From: Oceanidesulfovibrio indonesiensis
Lineage (GTDB): Bacteria > Desulfobacterota > Desulfovibrionia > Desulfovibrionales > Desulfovibrionaceae
Length of the DNA stretch: 64,000 nucleotides
Assembly: GCF_007625075.1 (NCBI RefSeq)
Contig: NZ_QMIE01000013.1
Coordinates: forward strand, 1-64,000
Direction of reading: 5' to 3'
The notes beneath the pieces were generated by a model that was not told the DNA's origin, made no database searches, and was given only the letters and a program-made list of their open reading frames with translations. The position numbers were made by a program, and so were the translations under genes. Shown one piece after another: positions 11,186-23,336 of this stretch (its first letter is position 1; each line of letters begins with the position of its first letter).

Positions 11186-11869
11186 CTACGATATTCCAAT
11201 ATGTTGAGCTATCTTTGCACTACTTTGCATGCGCTTTGCGTTTCTTGACTGTTCCTTGACTCCGTCTTTGCATTCATCCTGCCGCGTATAGTGCCAACGC
11301 AGACGCATGAGCGCGCTGTTGCGGAGACTGCGCACAGTCTGGGGATGGACGTCCATGAGCTCAGCTATCTCGTTGGTGCCGGCATCTTTTTCGAACGCCA
11401 GGTGCAGTACGTATGTCTGGCGAGGCGAAAGCACGCCGCGCGGCAGAGCGAGCATGCCGCCTTCTTCTTCCTGCACGGCTAATATCTGCTCCACTTCCTC
11501 CGGGGACATCTGCACCGTGTGCTTGCGGTTGCGCAGATGGTCCAGCGCCGCGCTCCGCGCCACCACGCACAGCCACGTTGAAAGCGAGCTGCGTTCAGGG
11601 TCATACGTGCGCAGCAGCTTGTACTCGCTGCGCACCAGTCGGAAGTATACTTCCTGAACTACCTCGTCCGTATCCGTCTCCAGCTCGTGGTAGGAATTTT
11701 TTGCCGCCCGCTGCCGCAACTTCCAGCGCACCGCCCTGCGCAATAACGGACCATATTCGATGAGGAACTGCCGCCAGGCTTTATCGTCGCCGGCCAGACA
11801 AGCCTCCAGATCGGTTGAAATCACCGTTGTGCTATGGCTGATATTCCTTGAAGTGATTGCTTTCCGCAT
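11186..11869 (-). CDS. ECF-like sigma-70 family RNA polymerase sigma factor
   Basis: A 227-residue alternative sigma factor. Region 2 shows DEVVQEVYFRLVRSEYKLLR, then STWLCVVARSAALDHLRNRK (promoter melting and -10 recognition). Region 4 shows LSPRQTYVLHLAFEKDAGTN, then EIAELMDVHPQTVRSLRNSA (-35 recognition helix-turn-helix). Domain order and the lack of region 3 fit an ECF-type factor. The start follows AGAAGGAG. It is transcribed towards flagellin with a gap of about 115 bases and is divergent from the response-regulator gene. No anti-sigma gene is adjacent; the nearest candidate is the HC2 protein at the far end of the flagellar locus. Confidence 0.88.
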   Translation of the reverse strand: MRKAITSRNISHSTTVISTDLEACLAGDDKAWRQFLIEYGPLLRRAVRWKLRQRAAKNSYHELETDTDEVVQEVYFRLVRSEYKLLRTYDPERSSLSTWLCVVARSAALDHLRNRKHTVQMSPEEVEQILAVQEEEGGMLALPRGVLSPRQTYVLHLAFEKDAGTNEIAELMDVHPQTVRSLRNSALMRLRWHYTRQDECKDGVKEQSRNAKRMQSSAKIAQHIGIS

Positions 11870-12115
11870 AATGAGAACTCCTTCTGCGTGCGTTCATTGC
11901 GCTTCTTGTTTCGTGGCGGGCATTCTTTGCCCCCCGCATCCGGAAAGTGCAGAGAGAACGCCCAACTACCTTCAGATCCGCATAAGTATGCTGAAGAGCT
12001 TCCAAAATACGCTTTACAATTCTTAAGTGTTGCCGGTCCGTTATTGGTCTTATCCTTGCTTGTGAACTACCTGTCGCATCGTGCGGCAATCGTGCTGACA
12101 ACCGAAGAATGGACA

Positions 12116-12868
12116 ATGCATAGAATCGTACTCATCGACGACGACGCCGAGCTGTGCTTCATGCTCGAAGAATACTTCCGCGGCGAAGGCTTCCTCGTGC
12201 ATTCGTATTATGACGGTGCATCCGGATTGGAGGCAGTTCTGTCCGAGGAATGGGATCTTCTTATTCTGGACGTCTGCCTGCCGGACCGAAACGGGTTCGA
12301 GTTGCTGGGGCAGCTGCGTATGGAGTCGAACCTGCCCGTGCTTATGCTCACAGGCCGCAGCGATGTCGTGGACAAGGTCGTCGGCCTGGAGATCGGCGCG
12401 GACGACTACCTGGCTAAACCCTTCGAGCCACGGGAACTGCTGGCCCGGGTCCGGGCCCTGACTCGACGCAGCCGCAGGCGCAGCGCATCTTCGGCGGAGA
12501 TCAAGACCGTCATGGCCGGGGACATCGTGCTGAACACGGGCACACGCAGGGTGTACGTGAACGGCACAGAGGTTCGTCTGACCAACGCCGAGTTCATCAT
12601 TCTGCAGATGTTGCTCTCAGCCCAGGGCAATCTGGTGAGCCGTGAGGATATCTCCAGGATCGCTCTCAACCGGGAGCTTGCGCCTTTCGACCGCAGCATC
12701 GACGTGCACATAAGCAACCTGCGCCGCAAACTGGGTTCTCCGCCCTGGGGCGGCGCCCGCATCGCCACCATACGCGGAGCCGGGTATCTGTACACGGCCT
12801 TCGAACCGTCCGATGATGAATTCGCCAAAGATGAGCGCTGCGCCCACGGTTCCGGGGGGAAGGAGTAG
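12116..12868 (+). CDS. OmpR-family response regulator, CpxR-like
   Basis: A 250-residue DNA-binding response regulator. The receiver domain (about 1-120) starts IVLIDDDAELCFMLEEYF and has the phosphoacceptor Asp in LLILDVCLPDRNGFELL, the conserved Thr in LMLTGR and Lys in YLAKPF. The winged-helix domain follows (SIDVHISNLRRKLG, IRGAGYLYT). The opening and the LLILDVCLPDRNG segment resemble CpxR. The ATG was chosen at the start of receiver homology; the ribosome site is weak. The kinase gene begins two bases after its stop. Confidence 0.93.
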   Translation: MHRIVLIDDDAELCFMLEEYFRGEGFLVHSYYDGASGLEAVLSEEWDLLILDVCLPDRNGFELLGQLRMESNLPVLMLTGRSDVVDKVVGLEIGADDYLAKPFEPRELLARVRALTRRSRRRSASSAEIKTVMAGDIVLNTGTRRVYVNGTEVRLTNAEFIILQMLLSAQGNLVSREDISRIALNRELAPFDRSIDVHISNLRRKLGSPPWGGARIATIRGAGYLYTAFEPSDDEFAKDERCAHGSGGKE

Positions 12869-12870
12869 AA

Positions 12871-14310
12871 ATGCGCGTCTGGCTGCTCCGCGTCCTCGTT
12901 TTCCTGCTCATCACTCTTGGCGCCGCCGTTATCTCAATCGTGGTCTATGACCATGCGGTGAACCAGAAGGATATGTTCCGGTTTCGCGCGCTGCACAGAA
13001 GCGAAGTCCTCAAGAACGTAGGGCGCTTGCTGCTGGAATGGCGCAGAAACGGCGCCGAGGCGGCCACCCGTGAGTATCTTGATGAACAGCGTAAACTGGG
13101 ACGCATCTACACCCTGCTCGACTCCAAGGGCACAGTGCTCGCCGGTGCGCAGCTGAACGAGGATCTGCGCGATCTGGCGAGGCGGGCAATGGATAACGAC
13201 GGATACGCAATTCCTGAAACGGCGCATGATTTTTTCGCCCCGCCCATGCGTCCTCCCTCCATGGAGGCTTTTGTCTTCCGCGGCCGCGACAAGGCCGAGT
13301 ACGTCCTGGCCCTGACCAACAAAGCCAAGGAAACACCCCCTCCAGGAAAACCCAAACCGCTCGTGTTCATCGTTCTTGGCGCATGCGTGGCCGCTTTCGT
13401 GCTGTACGCCCTGTTCCGCATCTCCACCACCGCCACCCGGGAACTGCGCGCGGCCATGCGGCTGCTGGGCCAGGGAGATTTCGGCGTCCGGGTGGACTCG
13501 GCCCTGGAACGCCGCAACGATACGTTCTCAAAGCTCGCCAGGGACTTCAATGCAACCGTGACAAGTCTTGCTGGCAAACAGGCCGAACAACGGTACATGA
13601 TCGCGGACCTCGCCCATGACATGCGATCATCCCTCACCCGCATGGCCCTGGCCATGGAACTCGCCAGCAATACCAGCCCGGACAAAGCTGCCCGGCTCCA
13701 GAGCCGCATCAAGGCCGACTCGGACAAACTGAACACCATATCCGAGCAACTCATGCATCACGTCCGTCAGCAGTGGAACGAGGCCCGACGAATACCGCTC
13801 CGTCTGGCCGTTGTACTGCGCTCACTTGCGCGGGAGCTGGATACGCAGGCGCGTGAGCAGGGCAAACGCGTGGTGTTCGTCCACCGCGGAGGTTGCCGCG
13901 TGCTGGGCAACGAACCCCAGATCGCCAGCATGGTGCGGAACATCGCAGCCAACGCACTACGGCACTCTCCGGCAAGCGGCGAGGTCCGCATCTTTCTTGA
14001 GCGCGATGCCGAAGCCGGAGCTGCGCGCATCGTTATCGAGGACGATGGCCCCGGTTTGCCTCAGGAAATGCTGCGGGAAGTCTTCGAACCATTCAGGCAG
14101 GGAGAAAACAGCGGCGAATCCGGCCTCGGGCTGGCCATCGCCAAACTGGTGTGCGAAAGGCACGGCGGGTCCATCACCCTGGATAACCGTCCCGAACGCG
14201 GTTTACGGGCTACAATTCTGCTGCCGCTCATGTATCTTGAACGTGCGGAACAATCCATAGACTCCGAACCCCAGTCAGAGACCGCAGCATGGGCTGGCGC
14301 TGAGCAGTAA
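12871..14310 (+). CDS. Membrane sensor histidine kinase, CpxA-like
   Basis: A 479-residue partner of the preceding regulator. A transmembrane helix spans about residues 5-27, followed by a periplasmic sensor region of some 130 residues with a Pro-rich stretch (APPMRPP), and a second helix at about 164-184 (PLVFIVLGACVAAFVLYALF). A HAMP-type linker follows. The phosphoacceptor is His249 in DLAHDMRSSLTRM. The ATPase domain has the N box (VRNIAANALRHSP), G1 (EDDGPGLP) and G2 (GLGLAIAKLV). CpxA-type kinases often sense envelope stress; the ligand here is unknown. The start follows GGAAGGAG. Confidence 0.93.
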   Translation: MRVWLLRVLVFLLITLGAAVISIVVYDHAVNQKDMFRFRALHRSEVLKNVGRLLLEWRRNGAEAATREYLDEQRKLGRIYTLLDSKGTVLAGAQLNEDLRDLARRAMDNDGYAIPETAHDFFAPPMRPPSMEAFVFRGRDKAEYVLALTNKAKETPPPGKPKPLVFIVLGACVAAFVLYALFRISTTATRELRAAMRLLGQGDFGVRVDSALERRNDTFSKLARDFNATVTSLAGKQAEQRYMIADLAHDMRSSLTRMALAMELASNTSPDKAARLQSRIKADSDKLNTISEQLMHHVRQQWNEARRIPLRLAVVLRSLARELDTQAREQGKRVVFVHRGGCRVLGNEPQIASMVRNIAANALRHSPASGEVRIFLERDAEAGAARIVIEDDGPGLPQEMLREVFEPFRQGENSGESGLGLAIAKLVCERHGGSITLDNRPERGLRATILLPLMYLERAEQSIDSEPQSETAAWAGAEQ

Positions 14311-14609
14311 CGAGAGCAGATCGGGGATTCCTGCCTGTGGGCTGGCTGAACAGCCTCGGCCGCAGCTGTGCGTTGCGCTTCGGTCAGTCCCCACTGCCTT
14401 TGCGAAATCTGGACATGCCGGACGTGACACGATTCGCGGACAACTGTACGCTGCTTGTACATTCCACCGAAATTGCCCGCCCATCCGCAACATCCACGCA
14501 TCGCCGGAATGCTCGGACTGCGCGGAGTTCAAAAAAACGCCGCCAGGACTGCTGCATGACGACACCGCTTGCACAGTCCCACAAAAGCTGCCCTCGGAGT
14601 CAACTCAAT

Positions 14610-17312
14610 ATGAGCGACCTCAAGAAAATAACAACAACATGCACCAGAGACTGCCCCAACACCTGCGGCTTGATCGCCACCGTGGAAGGCGGCCGCATCG
14701 CATCGCTGAAGGGTGACCCGGACCACCCTTATACACGGGGCACTGCCTGTGTGAAGGCTGCCCGTTACATCGACCGCGTATACAGCAGAGAGCGCGTGAC
14801 CCGCCCCATGATCCGCGAGAACGGGGCATGGCGCCATACATCCTGGGACGAGGCGTTCGCCCTTATCGCGGCCAGAATGAAGTCCATCCGCGACGAGTCA
14901 GGGCCGGAGGCGATCCTCTACTACCAGGGATACGGCGAACGCACCGCGCTCAAGCTGCTCAACCGCTACTTCTTCAACCTCTTCGGCGGCGTCACCACCC
15001 TGCGCGGCTCCCTCTGCGGCGGCACCGGCCAGGCGTCTCAGAATCTGGACTTCGGCGAGCGCATCTCCCACGACCCCCTGGATCATTACAACAGCAACTC
15101 CATGGTGCTCTGGGCGCGCAACCCCGTATCAACGAACATCAGCCTCGTGCCAATCATTCGCGAGATCAAGAAACGCGGCGGCCGCATCGTGCTGATCGAT
15201 CCGGTGAAGACCAGGACCGTCGCTCTCGCCGATCTGCATATCACGCCGCGTCCCGGCCGCGACGTCTACCTCGCCATGGCCGCGGCCAAGCTCATCCTCG
15301 CCCTCGGCGCACAGGATGACGAATTTCTTGAGAACCGCGCCGAAGGCTTCGAACAGTACCGGGACATCCTCTCCCGTTACTCTGTCATGGAGCTTTGCGA
15401 CCTGGCCGACGTGCCTATGGATCAGGTGGTCTCGCTGGCCGACATCTTTATGGGCCAGGGCCCCACATCCATTCTGCTCGGCTGGGGGCTGCATCGCCAT
15501 AAGTCCGCACACCTTTCCATCCGAGCAATCGACGCCCTCGCCGCCATCGCCGGCACCATCGGCATGCCCGGCGGCGGTGTGAGCCAGGGTTTTGAAGAGT
15601 ACGGCCCGTACGACCAGAGCTGGTGGGGCGATGACCTGAATCCGCCGCGTCGCACCCTGCTTGTATCCACGGTAGGCGAGGAAATCCTCAACGCGGACGA
15701 GCCGCCCATCCGCATGATTTACGTGACGGCCTCCAACCCCGTGTGCATGGCTCCGAATTCGGCCAAGGTCGCGCAAGCCTTTCGCAAGGCCGAGTTTGTG
15801 GTCTACTCAGGTCATTTCATGGACGATACAGCCGACCGCGCCGACGTTTTCCTGCCCGCCACCACGTTCCTGGAAGAGGATGACGTGATGGCCACCTATG
15901 GCCACAACTGGGTGGGCCCGGTGAATCGCGCCATCCCACCCGTGGGCGAGTGCAGGTCCGAATTCGAAATGTTTCAGGATCTTGCCGGGCACTTCGATTT
16001 CGCGGATCGCTTCCGCCTGGATGCTGCGGCCTGGATCGAAAAAATATGCGCACCCATATGGCGGCAGGGCTGCTCGCCGGAACAGTTGCGCCGCGGCGCG
16101 TTCCGCCTTGATGCACCCATGGTCCCTTATAAGGACAAGACGTTCCCAACACCGTCCGGCAAGTTCCGGTTCATGACAGAGTTCGACCCGGCCGAGGTGA
16201 ATGGTGCTGATGAGGCGTATCCATACAAGCTCATAACCTCCGCGCCCCACGCGTACATCTGTTCCGAACGCACCATGGCGGAACACGATCCGCTGCCCGT
16301 AATACGGCTCCACCCGGACGAAGCGGCCCAGCGTGGCCTGGAAGACGGCTCCCTGGTGCTGCTCCGCAGCCAGTATGGCGCGGTCAGGGCAAAGCTCCGG
16401 ACGGAAAACGGCATGCGGCGCGACGTTGTGGCGGCCGAACGCGGCGGCTGGATCAAGGCGGGCCACGGCCTGAATCTGCTGACCCGGGATATGTCCAGCA
16501 CGGTGGGCATGGGAACGCCATATTATGAGACCACGGTATCCGTGGAGCGCTGCGCGGATCCATGGTCCGCGCAGCCGCGTATTCTCGTCGTCCAGAACCA
16601 CGAACACGCTGCGCCAGCGGCTCTGGGCAGGGAGCTGGAACGCATGGGCGCAGCGCTGGACATACGCATGCCGTTCGAGGGCGATGCGCTACCCGAAACC
16701 CCGGAAAACCACGCCGGCCTCGTGGTTCTGGGCGGACCGCAACACGCCTTCGACGATGCGGACAACCCCTACTTCGCACCGCTTATGCGGCTCATGCGGA
16801 AGTTCGATGCGCAGCGCAAGCCTGTGGCCGGCGTCTGCCTTGGCTGCCAGCTGCTCGCACGGGCCTGGGGCGGCCGTCACCGCAATTGCGGCACCTTTGA
16901 ATTTGGATTCACCGAACTCAGCCTGACCACGGAAGGCGAAAACGATCCGATACTCGGCGGCCCGCTGCCGCGGCTTATGGAGTTCCACGAAGACAGCTTC
17001 ATCCCGCCTGAAGGAGCAACGCTCCTGGCCACGGGTGAATCCTGCGAAAACCAGTGTTTCCGCATCGGCAATGCATCATACGGATTCCAGTTCCGCTTCG
17101 AGGTGGACTCCAAAATATTAGACAATCTACTCACGCTTTTCAGAGGCGGCGAGATGGAAAAATACAACAATTATCTGGACAAATACGATGGCTGTATCTT
17201 CGAATCCATGGAGGCCGAACTGCCCCTGCTCCTGGAAGAATCGCAGGATTTCTGCCGCCGCGTAGCGGAGAACTGGCTGAAACTCTGCGCCGATGACATC
17301 GAAACTCAATAG
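14610..17312 (+). CDS. Molybdopterin oxidoreductase fused to a glutamine amidotransferase-like domain
   Basis: A 900-residue fusion. Residues 1-60 bind a 4Fe-4S cluster through Cys11, Cys15, Cys19 and Cys47. Residues about 60-560 are the molybdopterin domain (LRGSLCGGTGQASQNLDFGE with a candidate Mo-ligand Cys), and about 560-690 the dinucleotide-binding cap (TPSGKFRF, LHPDEAAQRGLEDGSLVLL). Residues about 695-900 resemble class I glutamine amidotransferases. They keep the nucleophile Cys743 (GVCLGCQLL) and a Glu at 831, but the catalytic His is Arg829 (GFQFRFEV). There is no Tat signal, so the enzyme is cytoplasmic; the substrate is unknown. The start follows GGAGTCAACTCAAT. The 299 bases before it hold no gene I could support. 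Confidence 0.85.
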   Translation: MSDLKKITTTCTRDCPNTCGLIATVEGGRIASLKGDPDHPYTRGTACVKAARYIDRVYSRERVTRPMIRENGAWRHTSWDEAFALIAARMKSIRDESGPEAILYYQGYGERTALKLLNRYFFNLFGGVTTLRGSLCGGTGQASQNLDFGERISHDPLDHYNSNSMVLWARNPVSTNISLVPIIREIKKRGGRIVLIDPVKTRTVALADLHITPRPGRDVYLAMAAAKLILALGAQDDEFLENRAEGFEQYRDILSRYSVMELCDLADVPMDQVVSLADIFMGQGPTSILLGWGLHRHKSAHLSIRAIDALAAIAGTIGMPGGGVSQGFEEYGPYDQSWWGDDLNPPRRTLLVSTVGEEILNADEPPIRMIYVTASNPVCMAPNSAKVAQAFRKAEFVVYSGHFMDDTADRADVFLPATTFLEEDDVMATYGHNWVGPVNRAIPPVGECRSEFEMFQDLAGHFDFADRFRLDAAAWIEKICAPIWRQGCSPEQLRRGAFRLDAPMVPYKDKTFPTPSGKFRFMTEFDPAEVNGADEAYPYKLITSAPHAYICSERTMAEHDPLPVIRLHPDEAAQRGLEDGSLVLLRSQYGAVRAKLRTENGMRRDVVAAERGGWIKAGHGLNLLTRDMSSTVGMGTPYYETTVSVERCADPWSAQPRILVVQNHEHAAPAALGRELERMGAALDIRMPFEGDALPETPENHAGLVVLGGPQHAFDDADNPYFAPLMRLMRKFDAQRKPVAGVCLGCQLLARAWGGRHRNCGTFEFGFTELSLTTEGENDPILGGPLPRLMEFHEDSFIPPEGATLLATGESCENQCFRIGNASYGFQFRFEVDSKILDNLLTLFRGGEMEKYNNYLDKYDGCIFESMEAELPLLLEESQDFCRRVAENWLKLCADDIETQ

Positions 17313-17655: not shown

Positions 17656-19215
17656 TTAGTGCGCGTTTTCCGAGGTCAGACGTTCGTTCCCTTCCCACAC
17701 CTTTTCCGATTCGGGCAAGAGCGGGATGTACTCGAACCACTTGTGGCTGGCCATGTGGTCGGGATCCATCTGCAATTCACGGCTGTGCTCCAGAATCGGC
17801 GGTACGATCTCACGAATATCCCCGGCAAGGTCTCTGGCCGTTGTGAACGAGGCTGCCTCGACGGCCTTGTCGATGGCCTTCTGGCTGTACTGCTGGGAAC
17901 TGGCAAGGGTGTCCAGGGACTTGGTTGGGTTGTGGAAACCCGCGCTGTTTTCAGCGGAAATAAGATCCCAGAAGAACTGACCCTTACGGCACATTTCCCG
18001 CGCCTCGATCATCAGTTCGTCATAGTTGAAAGGCTTCGGTCCAGTGTACTCGCTGGCCATGCGTATCGCTTCATGCGCTTTGACCGAAAGATCCTGAGCG
18101 ATCAACAGCTGATTCCAGACTTTCTCCTGGCTGGAGATTACGCGCTCGCGGAGATATTCGGGGGTCTTGTCCGTATGGCACTGCCGACATGCTTTCATGT
18201 CGGGGTCTTTGAGGGGCGAGGTCCAGTGGTGGTTGGAGATCTTCTTTTTGCCGTCCAGTCTCACGTAAGGCATGTGACAGTCCGAACACCCTACCCCGGC
18301 GGCTCCGTGCGAGCCGTTATACCACATCTCGTATTCGGGGTGCTGCGCCTTGAGCATCGGGGTTTTGGAAACCGGATGGACCCAGTCCACAAAGTTTCCT
18401 TCGAACCCGGGGATATTCGTATCGCCCGTGTTCTTGTAGTATTCATACATATCTTCCGGGTCCTTGCCTTTGGCCCACGGGAAAATCGGTTTCTTGGCCG
18501 CCCCGAACTTTTCGTCCTGGAAGTAGTACTCTACGTGACACTGCCCACACACGAGTGCTCTTTGTTCATTGCGAGGCAGCTCGGAAAAATTCTTGCCCTC
18601 GGATTCCAGATGAGCCTTGAGTGGAACCGAGTACAGCCGGAGCTCCATATCCTTGGGATCATGACAGTTGGCGCATCCTATGGTGTTTTCATCCAGGTCG
18701 ACATCCTCGCGGAATTCATTGAAATCCTTGACCCAGAACGAATCGCCGTATTCGTCCGTCCATTCGAGCATCTTGGTCCCTTTGCAATTCCAACACGTCG
18801 AAGGAAGTCCGGCTTTTTCGGAAAAACGGTTGATGCGATCAATCTCAAGAATATCCTTCAAAGCATAGGTGTGTCCTCTGGCTCTCCGGTATTCGTAGCT
18901 GAACGGATACCCGAGCCACAGGTTCTTCAAGTATGGCTGGGCATACTTATATCCTTCAGGCAAAGGATTCACACCATCGTTTTTGTTGTGGTTAACGGAA
19001 CCTCCGTATTCCGTCATTATTTCAGATTCATCATTGCGCAGGTACGTTTCATAATGCAAAGGAAACTCGGATTTGAATGCCGAGTTCTTTATTTCATCTG
19101 ATGATAGATTTGTTTCATACGTCGGTGTAGTCGGTTCGGAAACATCCGAGCATCCGATTGCTACAAGCAGCAACCCGGTAAGAACAGCCCAAGAGAAAAA
19201 CATATGCTTACGCAT
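17656..19215 (-). CDS. nrfA: Ammonia-forming cytochrome c nitrite reductase, catalytic subunit NrfA
   Basis: Reduces nitrite to ammonium with six electrons on the outer face of the cytoplasmic membrane. The 519-residue protein has a lipoprotein signal ending at Cys22 (LLLVAIGC), so it is membrane-anchored, as in Desulfovibrio NrfA. Five haem sites are visible: CWNCK (the lysine-ligated active-site haem diagnostic of NrfA), CANCH, CGQCH, CSDCH and CRQCH. The active-site region KTPMLKAQHPEYEMWYNGSH is also present. The start follows AAAAGGAG and overlaps the nrfH end by 8 bases, showing coupling. Confidence 0.97.
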   Translation of the reverse strand: MRKHMFFSWAVLTGLLLVAIGCSDVSEPTTPTYETNLSSDEIKNSAFKSEFPLHYETYLRNDESEIMTEYGGSVNHNKNDGVNPLPEGYKYAQPYLKNLWLGYPFSYEYRRARGHTYALKDILEIDRINRFSEKAGLPSTCWNCKGTKMLEWTDEYGDSFWVKDFNEFREDVDLDENTIGCANCHDPKDMELRLYSVPLKAHLESEGKNFSELPRNEQRALVCGQCHVEYYFQDEKFGAAKKPIFPWAKGKDPEDMYEYYKNTGDTNIPGFEGNFVDWVHPVSKTPMLKAQHPEYEMWYNGSHGAAGVGCSDCHMPYVRLDGKKKISNHHWTSPLKDPDMKACRQCHTDKTPEYLRERVISSQEKVWNQLLIAQDLSVKAHEAIRMASEYTGPKPFNYDELMIEAREMCRKGQFFWDLISAENSAGFHNPTKSLDTLASSQQYSQKAIDKAVEAASFTTARDLAGDIREIVPPILEHSRELQMDPDHMASHKWFEYIPLLPESEKVWEGNERLTSENAH

Positions 19216-19678
19216 CTGCGGCACTCCTTTTGGATATCGGCTTCTTTGGGGAGTGAGGGACATGCCGATGGCAGTCTGTACAATACGTCTTGCTTTGCAT
19301 GACTGTGCCTGTTGTCGCGCTATGGCACCGCACGCAGTTGGCCTGAGTGACGTCCTTGGTTTCCTCACCGGGGTGAATGAGATCCGGAATGGACTTGGTC
19401 GCCGTGGCCCAGATATCCCGTACTCCTTCCTTCGTCTTGAACGGAATCTTTGCAAGGATATCGTTTGGCGCGTGGCACTCGTTGCAAGCCAACTCCGCAT
19501 GGACCGATTGTTTGTGGGTCAAGGCTGCCTCCGACATGGAATGACATCCGCCGCAGAACATCGCCTTGTCGGTGGTGGTCATGGCTACGGCTGCGCTTAC
19601 AGTCAGCACTACTCCAAGAGCTATCGCCGGTAGTGTGTAACGCCATATCCGGCCGCTATCACGGGGTTTCCGGGCCAT
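19208..19678 (-). CDS. nrfH: Cytochrome c nitrite reductase quinol dehydrogenase NrfH
   Basis: A membrane-anchored tetrahaem cytochrome of the NapC/NirT family that takes electrons from menaquinol and passes them to NrfA. The 156-residue protein has one N-terminal transmembrane helix (about residues 13-33, YTLPAIALGVVLTVSAAVAM) and four haem motifs: CGGCH, CNECH, CVRCH and CTDCH. Haem 1 is followed by SMSEA, so Met49 could be the haem ligand known from D. vulgaris NrfH. It is first in the nrfHA operon; the start follows GGAGGGAAGG. Confidence 0.96.
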   Translation of the reverse strand: MARKPRDSGRIWRYTLPAIALGVVLTVSAAVAMTTTDKAMFCGGCHSMSEAALTHKQSVHAELACNECHAPNDILAKIPFKTKEGVRDIWATATKSIPDLIHPGEETKDVTQANCVRCHSATTGTVMQSKTYCTDCHRHVPHSPKKPISKRSAADA

Positions 19679-21815: not shown

Positions 21816-23336
21816 CTAAAACGTGTATTTCAGCCCCAGCGCCGCTTTCCAGGCAGTGCCCACATCCTGGTTTATCCAGACGTCGCTGCCGTAATTCACG
21901 TGCACCATGCCCGTCTCCAGTTGCAATTCGAGATTCTCGAACAGCTTGTAGTACGTATCGAAGTTGACCTCGAACATGCTGTCTTCCGTGGTCAGGGGGA
22001 TGTCGGCGATGGTGGTCTCCATGGGCGGTGTCACGTAACCGGCAGGCACCGGCATCGGCGAGCCTTTGTAGCCGAGGATGAGACTCGGACTGGTAAGACC
22101 CACGATGCGCCGGCTGTCCGGATCGTTGGTGCCCTGCGCATAGAGGAAACGCACGGTATGGTGCAGGTCCTCCATGAAGGTGATGTCTTTGAGCGCGAAG
22201 CGCAGACCCCACATGCCGGCAGGCGATGCGCTCACCAAACCTTCCCACGGCAGCATGCGCGTGCCCACGAAGCCGAAACTTGTGGGGCCGAACGCCCGCA
22301 CCGAGCTCAGGGTGGGCAGTTGTTCCGAACCGTTTCGCCAGGAGCCGTCCTCGCCCGTGGCGTACCATCCGAAAAGCGAGAGCGTAAGCATGTCCAGCTT
22401 GTAGTCCAGCTCCGCGCCCACGTAGAGACCGCGGCGGTCCAGCGCGGCGTTTGTCGCCTCGACCGAGCCGTAGAGCGCCTCCACGGCGATCTCGAACGGG
22501 TCAAACATGGTGATCTCGGCCGCGGTGCCGGCCCACCAGACGTAGAAGTGGCTCTGATCGTTTATATAGCGGGAGATGAACGGCTGGCCGAGGTAGGCGA
22601 GCCCCGCGGAGAACGCTGGAGAGAGCATCCGCGGAAAACCCGCCAGTCCCTGATCGCGGAACACGTCCCGCCCGGAGGCGATGAACATGGCATACGGGGT
22701 GACCGACCACCCTTCTCCCGTGACGGGGACCATGAGCGCGAAATAGTCCATTTCGTCGATGCGGGATGAGCCCTTGGACACTACGTTGTTCGCGTCCAGA
22801 TCGTACAGCCTTGTCCAGAACGCTGTGACGCTGACAGCATCGCTAAAGCGGTACATGGCCGAAACGCCGGCTGCGTCGGCGTCCACCAGTACAAAGCCCA
22901 GACCGATGTTCGGGTTGGTGACGCCCTGGATGCCCACGCGGAAGGTGAGGTCGGTATCCGGAATGTCGAACTCGATGAAGGCGCGCTTGGTCTCCACGTT
23001 CACGCCGTCCGCGCCGAGCGCGCCGCCGGAGCCTCTGCCCACGGCGCCGCCGCGTCCCCACTGCAACTCGCCGATCTCGATATGATAGACGCCGCGCAGG
23101 TGTTCACTGGCCACGAAATCCACCTGCACGCGGATACGCTGCCTGGCGTGGAATCCGTCACGGGACTGGTCGAGCGGACCGGTGCCGTAGAGATTGCCAT
23201 TCTCGTCGTAGCGGAAAGAGAAGAGATACTCGCCTTTGGCGCTTACCTCCAACGCATGCGACGTTTCAGCCGACGTGCCCAGGATCACGGTGAGACACAG
23301 AATGGCGATGCAACGGACGACTGACAGATTTGACAC
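21816..23336 (-). CDS. Outer-membrane homotrimeric porin, Desulfovibrio type
   Basis: A 506-residue beta-barrel porin for passive uptake of small solutes. An export signal is visible (CIAILCLTVILGTSAETSHA), then the mature start LEVSAKGEYLFSFRYDENGN, typical of the abundant porins of Desulfovibrionaceae. Alternating hydrophobic strands run to the C-terminal WKAALGLKYTF, ending in Phe as required for barrel assembly. It stands alone, divergent from the HDOD gene. Such porins usually occur in many paralogous copies per genome. Confidence 0.88.
   Translation of the reverse strand: MSNLSVVRCIAILCLTVILGTSAETSHALEVSAKGEYLFSFRYDENGNLYGTGPLDQSRDGFHARQRIRVQVDFVASEHLRGVYHIEIGELQWGRGGAVGRGSGGALGADGVNVETKRAFIEFDIPDTDLTFRVGIQGVTNPNIGLGFVLVDADAAGVSAMYRFSDAVSVTAFWTRLYDLDANNVVSKGSSRIDEMDYFALMVPVTGEGWSVTPYAMFIASGRDVFRDQGLAGFPRMLSPAFSAGLAYLGQPFISRYINDQSHFYVWWAGTAAEITMFDPFEIAVEALYGSVEATNAALDRRGLYVGAELDYKLDMLTLSLFGWYATGEDGSWRNGSEQLPTLSSVRAFGPTSFGFVGTRMLPWEGLVSASPAGMWGLRFALKDITFMEDLHHTVRFLYAQGTNDPDSRRIVGLTSPSLILGYKGSPMPVPAGYVTPPMETTIADIPLTTEDSMFEVNFDTYYKLFENLELQLETGMVHVNYGSDVWINQDVGTAWKAALGLKYTF

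Follow-up and report, generated by a model that had tools for sequence, protein, structure and literature searches.

The Fused Gene and Its Domains

The window analysed here is a 64,000-nucleotide stretch of the Oceanidesulfovibrio indonesiensis genome (contig NZ_QMIE01000013.1, positions 1 to 64,000 of the forward strand). It contains a gene in which a molybdopterin oxidoreductase, here called the molybdenum half, is fused to a class I glutamine amidotransferase (GATase)-like domain. This fusion and the operon that accompanies it in relatives form a real, conserved arrangement that is undescribed within the literature searched; in the portions of that literature available, no published description of the fusion or of the pathway considered below turned up. 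The features at the locus, including a remnant of a radical S-adenosylmethionine (SAM) gene, are as follows.

14610..17312, + strand: fused gene, molybdopterin oxidoreductase plus class I GATase-like domain, 900 aa
14610..16544, + strand: molybdopterin oxidoreductase part, residues 1-645 (Pfam, column counts, dN/dS)
16575..17132, + strand: class I GATase-like domain, about residues 656-841 (Pfam, alignments, dN/dS)
17133..17309, + strand: C-terminal tail, residues 842-900 (found in fused relatives; no Pfam match)
14394..14609, + strand: radical SAM 3' remnant, frameshifted, directly upstream of the fusion (tblastn, DNA alignment)

The fused gene is a single open frame from an ATG at 14610 to a stop at 17312, and an initial annotation made from the sequence was correct in describing an oxidoreductase and an amidotransferase-like domain joined in one frame. 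Matches above the curated Pfam cut-offs were found to PF04879 (residues 5-59), PF00384 (62-459) and PF01568 (557-639), which bears out the description of the oxidoreductase as complete, and to PF00117, the class I glutamine amidotransferase family (697-833; 33.4 bits against a cut-off of 22.8). The molybdopterin domains and the GATase domain are found together on one protein, the architecture for which a Pfam search had been suggested. The Peptidase_C26 profile (PF07722), which represents PuuD-type γ-glutamyl hydrolases, scored 17.3 bits against the GATase domain, below its cut-off of 20.5. An alignment-free structure prediction for the isolated GATase domain was of no use (mean predicted local distance difference test score of 34). 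Inspection of the N terminus by eye revealed no obvious twin-arginine translocation (Tat) signal, in agreement with the initial annotation. The possibility that the whole gene is a pseudogene was ruled out by the open frame, the retained Fe-S and Mo residues, and pairwise ratios of nonsynonymous to synonymous substitution (dN/dS) against a relative of the same genus (G001) of 0.13 for the molybdenum half and 0.16 for the GATase domain.

The [4Fe-4S] cysteines C11, C15, C19 and C47 and the putative Mo ligand C136 are each invariant in 31/31 fused proteins. The Fe4S4, molybdopterin and dinucleotide-binding domains, all present above cut-off, are common to formate dehydrogenase H and the other dimethyl sulfoxide (DMSO) reductase-type enzymes, and the best two solved relatives of the molybdenum half are formate dehydrogenases. 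However, with the formate dehydrogenase alpha equivalog (TIGR01591) it reached 261.8 bits, well short of the 666.25 needed, and the residue after Cys136 is Gly137 in all 31 fused proteins, where formate dehydrogenase H (FdhH) aligns a His that we take to be a functional residue of formate dehydrogenase. On these sequence features, the molybdenum half is assigned to the DMSO reductase family, outside the formate dehydrogenases; it may belong with the uncharacterised MopB_3 group, which it appears to resemble.

In the GATase domain, the codons at the positions of the Cys-His-Glu catalytic triad are TGC for Cys743 (16836-16838), CGC for Arg829 (17094-17096) and GAG for Glu831 (17100-17102). The triad is incomplete in the window protein, which retains Cys and Glu but has Arg where His is expected, as had been noted initially; the CGC codon is one transition away from the His codon CAC. 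The Arg829 column is His in all five solved class I GATases shown as alignments (22 matched). Stand-alone class I GATases such as PDB 9xfs and 3m3p share this domain, and in each of the five alignments shown their Cys and Glu line up with those of the window protein. They are separate proteins, however, and those aligned carry His where the window protein carries Arg; γ-glutamyl peptidase 1 is a weaker match. The initial annotation also remarked on a Cys in place of the usual His after the nucleophile region. This is literally correct (Cys746) and of little importance, as the column contains A (16), C (14) or S (1) in the 31 fused proteins, and each of the five aligned solved relatives has A, G or S there.

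Of the 31 fused proteins, the window protein included, 30 have His in column 829 and the window protein alone has Arg; the complete triad is present in 29 of the 30 aligned fused relatives, the exception being L037 (genome G310), in which Cys is replaced by Ser. Arg829 is private to the window genome. Because the homologues carry His, Arg829 is not a conserved residue marking a new function, a possibility that had been raised initially. The initial annotation had expected its case to fail if homologues showed His at this position and separate genes; His was indeed found, but the homologues are themselves fused, and the architecture is genuine.

Distribution of the Fusion

Because matches at 55-78% identity across nearly the full length recur in many genomes, the fusion is not a chance event. 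A survey covered 348 genomes of the class and found a match to the molybdenum or fused gene at E ≤ 1e-150 in 76 of them. Fifty-six of the 76 entered the triad reading and the tree, 52 of them forming one clade and four an unfused outgroup; the remaining 20 are unfused and 46-52% identical, as judged from table rows. In two of the 52 clade genomes (G282 and G076) a contig end interrupts the gene, and both were excluded from counts. In a sample of 395 genomes from the phylum, seven matched; the full-length matches are all within the window's own family, and three matches outside it (G559, G576 and G517) stop at residues 645-651. Some portion of the protein was matched by 1267 of 72,556 plasmid records, none of which covers more than 80% of the query in one place. 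A search of genome contigs for related loci returned only remote matches to the molybdenum half, four in number and 24-43% identical, and the genes around distant Peptoclostridium and Agrobacterium homologues offered no functional lead. Genome G216 contains both a fused gene (L105) and a second, unfused copy (G216:C28:254109-256100) of about 52% identity; given these two copies, the unfused outgroup may represent a parallel family.

The Operon in Relatives

In 11 of the 15 fused loci that were fetched with 11-20 kb of context, the fusion is the last gene of an operon, preceded by genes in a fixed order: C45 hydrolase, substrate-binding protein (SBP), two permeases, two ATPases and radical SAM protein, the last lying immediately before the fusion gene. 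The C45 hydrolase, SBP, radical SAM protein and one of the two ATPases were checked by family search, and the permeases were named by eye and from gene order. None of the five unfused loci fetched has this operon, although one of these (L055) has just 1.4 kb of upstream sequence. A glutamine synthetase (GS)-like gene heads the operon in 15/15 upstream stretches, all drawn from operon-bearing genomes. In the two stretches whose reading frames were inspected by eye, the strand opposite the operon also carries, beside it, a gene for a PAS histidine kinase and one for an NtrC-type regulator.

The GS-like protein matches three families best (type III glutamine synthetase, type I glutamine synthetase and γ-glutamylputrescine synthetase), but its scores fall far short of each cut-off; the γ-glutamylputrescine synthetase equivalog (NF045547) scored 226.7 bits against 650. 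The column of the ammonia-flap Glu is occupied by Phe in all 15 GS-like proteins, aligned with a Glu of PDB 7tdp that we take to be flap Glu327; this matches the description of PauA7 in PMC6529630. The Glu is therefore lost at this position; in the second alignment shown, with PDB 8wwu, the column contains Leu.

The Window Locus Retains a Remnant of the Operon

Directly upstream of the fusion in the window, in the place of the radical SAM gene of operon-bearing relatives, is the frameshifted 3' piece of such a gene. This remnant was detected by tblastn with an E value of 6e-4 in the window and 3e-7 in a 1.5-kb upstream stretch, and its DNA alignment score of 74 compares with a maximum of 42 over 200 shuffles. 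In the window's genome, no C45 hydrolase, operon SBP, radical SAM or GS-like gene was found at operon-like scores, with weak matches to other proteins only. The whole operon is present at this place in G001. The downstream chemotaxis gene and the gene after it (21816-23336, no Pfam match) are shared with G001 in the same order, indicating that the two genomes are being compared at the same locus.

GATase Integrity Is Associated with the Presence of the Operon

The operon was scored as present at E limits of 1e-100 for the SBP, 1e-30 for the radical SAM protein and 1e-120 for the GS-like protein, at which a diverged operon, or one inside an assembly gap, could escape scoring. Across the 348 genomes of the class, the SBP was found in 25, the radical SAM protein in 27 (one, G291, having a mere fragment) and the GS-like protein in 27. 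Without the G291 fragment, the union of these is 28 genomes, with G213 counted on its GS-like gene, and the molybdenum gene is present in 28/28. Cys, His and Glu are all kept in each of the 27 readable GATase domains of these operon-bearing genomes. The same clade has 23 readable genomes that lack the operon; the triad is intact in 12 of these and broken in three (H829R in the window, C743S in G310, and C743R with E831G in G296), and the domain is missing from eight. Fisher's test on the intact triads (27/27 operon-bearing vs 12/23 operon-less) gave 3.6e-5, and restriction to genomes at least 90% complete gave 19/19 vs 10/20 (p 4e-4).

As relatives are not independent, events were also counted on a maximum-likelihood tree, in which some nodes are weakly supported (42-78). 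Six GATase defects or losses were counted, all on operon-less branches. These branches account for 30% of the clade's tree length, giving a chance of 0.296^6 = 7e-4 under a loss-only model; such a model implies 16 operon losses, some of which could instead be gains by transfer, and this would weaken the value.

Upstream of the fusion in G291 (L100), the radical SAM gene is truncated (query residues 169-318) and the GATase triad is intact, an apparent early stage of operon loss. In four loci, L055, L094, L095 and L096 (G054, G063, G060 and G061, respectively), weak GATase matches (E 3e-5 to 9e-4) lie at similar positions past the stop of a shortened molybdenum gene, and in L096 the alignment continues through a stop, from query residue 650 to 713. 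These matches look like relics of a lost fusion.

The retention of an intact triad by 39 of all 42 domains that could be read, and the fact that the domain travels with the GS-like operon, point to catalysis. The initial annotation had suggested that an inactive domain might sense a ligand or bind a partner, and it is true that the window genome, G310 and G296 retain the domain despite a broken triad and that the window copy of it is still strongly constrained. This suggestion gained no positive support, however: a non-catalytic sensor or binding module would be hard to match with a triad that is kept in every readable operon-bearing genome and with the disappearance of the domain from eight operon-less ones, and we regard it as quite improbable.

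We consider it most improbable that the Cys-Arg-Glu site performs new chemistry in the window species. The retention of Cys and Glu and the constraint on the domain are compatible with such an activity, but Arg is confined to one of the 31 fused proteins, in a genome that lacks the operon, and two other operon-less lineages altered other residues of the triad, as decay predicts. New chemistry at Arg829 is thus not supported; what the evidence does support is either a point mutation or an error in sequencing. The loss of His in the window is recent, tolerated or an error, and the odd arginine looks like decay. With His replaced by Arg in the triad, the domain is probably inactive, as first proposed, and any hydrolase activity in the window protein is probably dead. 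Where a catalytic residue is missing in a single genome, relatives should be compared before new chemistry is claimed.

A Proposed γ-Glutamylation Pathway

Taken together, these observations lead us to favor, with reasonable though far from full confidence, a γ-glutamylation pathway for an amine in which the GATase domain removes the tag, the window copy being an orphan after operon loss. An ABC importer made up of the SBP, two permeases and two ATPases would take up an amine-type compound, from which the C45 amide hydrolase may release an amine. The GS-like enzyme would then join glutamate to the amine via its γ-carboxyl at the expense of ATP, and the radical SAM protein, the molybdenum half or both would alter the glutamylated compound by redox chemistry without oxygen. 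The fused GATase domain, acting as a γ-glutamyl hydrolase with a Cys-His-Glu triad, would strip the tag and return glutamate. The fusion gene would have been the last member of the operon in the ancestor, as it is in many relatives. The window lineage would have lost the operon while retaining a broken piece of the radical SAM gene, leaving the GATase domain without a client. The subsequent replacement of its catalytic His by Arg would probably have inactivated the hydrolase, and the molybdenum half would have retained a separate function. Such hydrolase-only decay in operon-less lineages would be a case in which one domain of a fused protein loses its client and the other is kept.

γ-Glutamyl-tag breakdown of amines is known mainly from oxygen-dependent or flavin- or NAD-dependent pathways, and in the Puu pathway for putrescine, γ-glutamylation is followed by oxidation of the tagged amine and then by hydrolysis of the tag. 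For ethanolamine (GlnA4), the available portion of PMC6529630 proposes a γ-glutamylation pathway with ligation, oxidation and tag hydrolysis in succession. The Puu and GlnA4 pathways resemble the proposed one in having γ-glutamylation by a GS-like enzyme as the first step; the system here differs in that its GS-like protein and the window GATase domain score below the NF045547 and Peptidase_C26 cut-offs, respectively, and in having a molybdenum oxidoreductase in place of other dehydrogenases. Precedents are found in the available portions of PMC11335346 and PMC4539516, where pairs of GS-like and GATase-like proteins make and hydrolyse the γ-glutamyl amides of aniline and 1-naphthylamine. In these AtdA1-AtdA2 and NpaA1-NpaA2 modules, as described there, a GS-like ligase, a GATase-like hydrolase and an oxidoreductase are clustered, but the GATase-like protein is separate and the oxidoreductase is a Rieske-type dioxygenase. 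The operon instead has a molybdopterin enzyme fused to the GATase domain, plus the C45 hydrolase, importer and radical SAM protein, and the likeness to AtdA2 and NpaA2 is drawn from their descriptions. By analogy with these systems, the GATase domain would be a γ-glutamyl hydrolase, a role to which the pattern of co-loss lends support, and the molybdenum half would perform the redox step; we likewise infer the amine substrate, the order of the steps and the redox reaction of the molybdenum enzyme.

A related cluster was found on plasmid CP021374 of Rhizobium sp. ACO-34A (190950-202068; L080 and L083), whose SBP is 81% identical to that of the operon. The order there is SBP, permeases, ATPases, stand-alone class I GATase, GS-like protein, amidase and serine hydroxymethyltransferase (glyA). 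The GATase is 33% identical to the window domain, with the catalytic His present, and the GS-like protein is about 40% identical to that of the operon. The importer layout, SBP, GATase and GS-like ligase are therefore held in common with the fused operon, whereas the GATase stands alone and the nearby genes encode an amidase and a serine hydroxymethyltransferase rather than a C45 hydrolase, radical SAM protein and molybdenum enzyme. Transfer of the importer between distant bacteria, in either direction, is likely, and the pairing of the same importer with a GATase and a GS-like protein in a distant bacterium supports a shared and probably γ-glutamyl-based use of one substrate. Among the listed neighbours of the next-best importers, at about 40% identity, there is neither a GATase nor a GS-like gene.

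The GATase domain could instead be a true glutamine amidotransferase that releases ammonia from glutamine and channels it either into the molybdenum site or towards a separate enzyme. A class I GATase domain with a triad intact in nearly all readable copies would suit this role, and amidotransferases are classically joined to another catalytic domain, as in GuaA. On the other hand, the domain is tied to a GS-like ligase with Phe at the ammonia-flap column, glutamine made and hydrolysed by one operon would be futile, and we know of no ammonia-using molybdopterin enzyme of the DMSO-reductase-type family. An amidotransferase role thus seems improbable.

Several observations weigh against the γ-glutamylation pathway and the history of operon loss proposed here. 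Asp50 is retained in 15/15 GS-like proteins, and in the available portion of PMC6529630 both Asp50 and Glu327 are described as not conserved in the γ-glutamyl-amine synthetases PauA7 and GlnA4; by its residues, the GS-like protein would match such synthetases only by half. The 12 operon-less genomes with a complete triad indicate that decay is not automatic; the GATase domain may serve some purpose independent of the operon, or its decay may be yet to come. The molybdenum half persists without the operon or the GATase domain, so it need not share their pathway, and its role is probably an independent one, whether original or acquired. Upstream of the fusion, the two-component, sigma-factor and flagellar genes of the window had no tblastn match in the two G001 stretches searched; this flank is not shared with G001, and the event need not have been a simple deletion. 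Finally, the window GATase domain is otherwise not clearly decayed. Private substitutions in the window vs G001 number 17 vs 15 in the GATase domain, 31 vs 29 in the molybdenum half and 6 vs 3 in the tail, with 26 and 12 further sites undecided in the GATase domain and tail, respectively, and those at otherwise invariant columns number 3 vs 2 of 60 in the GATase domain and 3 vs 2 of 255 in the molybdenum half.

Since the remainder of the domain shows no clear decay, the change at codon 829 may have happened very recently or may be a sequencing artefact. An error of sequencing or assembly, the window GATase being in fact normal, is an unlikely but serious alternative: a single transition separates CGC from CAC, all 30 aligned relatives carry His, the rest of the domain is constrained, and the assembly is in 330 contigs. 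The failure to find the operon in the window genome and the decayed radical SAM fragment nevertheless make a true loss plausible, and two more operon-less relatives also have changes in the triad.

Returning to the γ-glutamylation pathway, a more specific form of it can be put forward tentatively, as a possibility that we rate somewhat below even. In this form the pathway would be anaerobic and hitherto undescribed, and a molybdopterin enzyme would stand in for the flavin or oxygen-dependent oxidase. As this enzyme is joined to a dedicated γ-glutamyl hydrolase, a single protein would both carry out the redox conversion of the tagged amine and remove the tag; the window would hold the surviving, orphan last enzyme, its molybdenum half repurposed. 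If true, the joining of a molybdenum enzyme to a tag-removing hydrolase would constitute an anaerobic version of γ-glutamyl amine breakdown with a testable set of proteins.

Neighbouring Genes

Genes for a cytochrome c552 (NrfA-type) and a NapC/NirT-type cytochrome adjoin the fusion on the opposite strand (17656-19678, - strand); no matches to them were found in the same-genus stretches L048 and L119. Upstream of the fusion and its radical SAM remnant, the region 11186-14310 encodes a sigma-70-like factor, an OmpR-type regulator and a histidine kinase, unlike the NtrC-type pair that lies beside the operon in two relatives.

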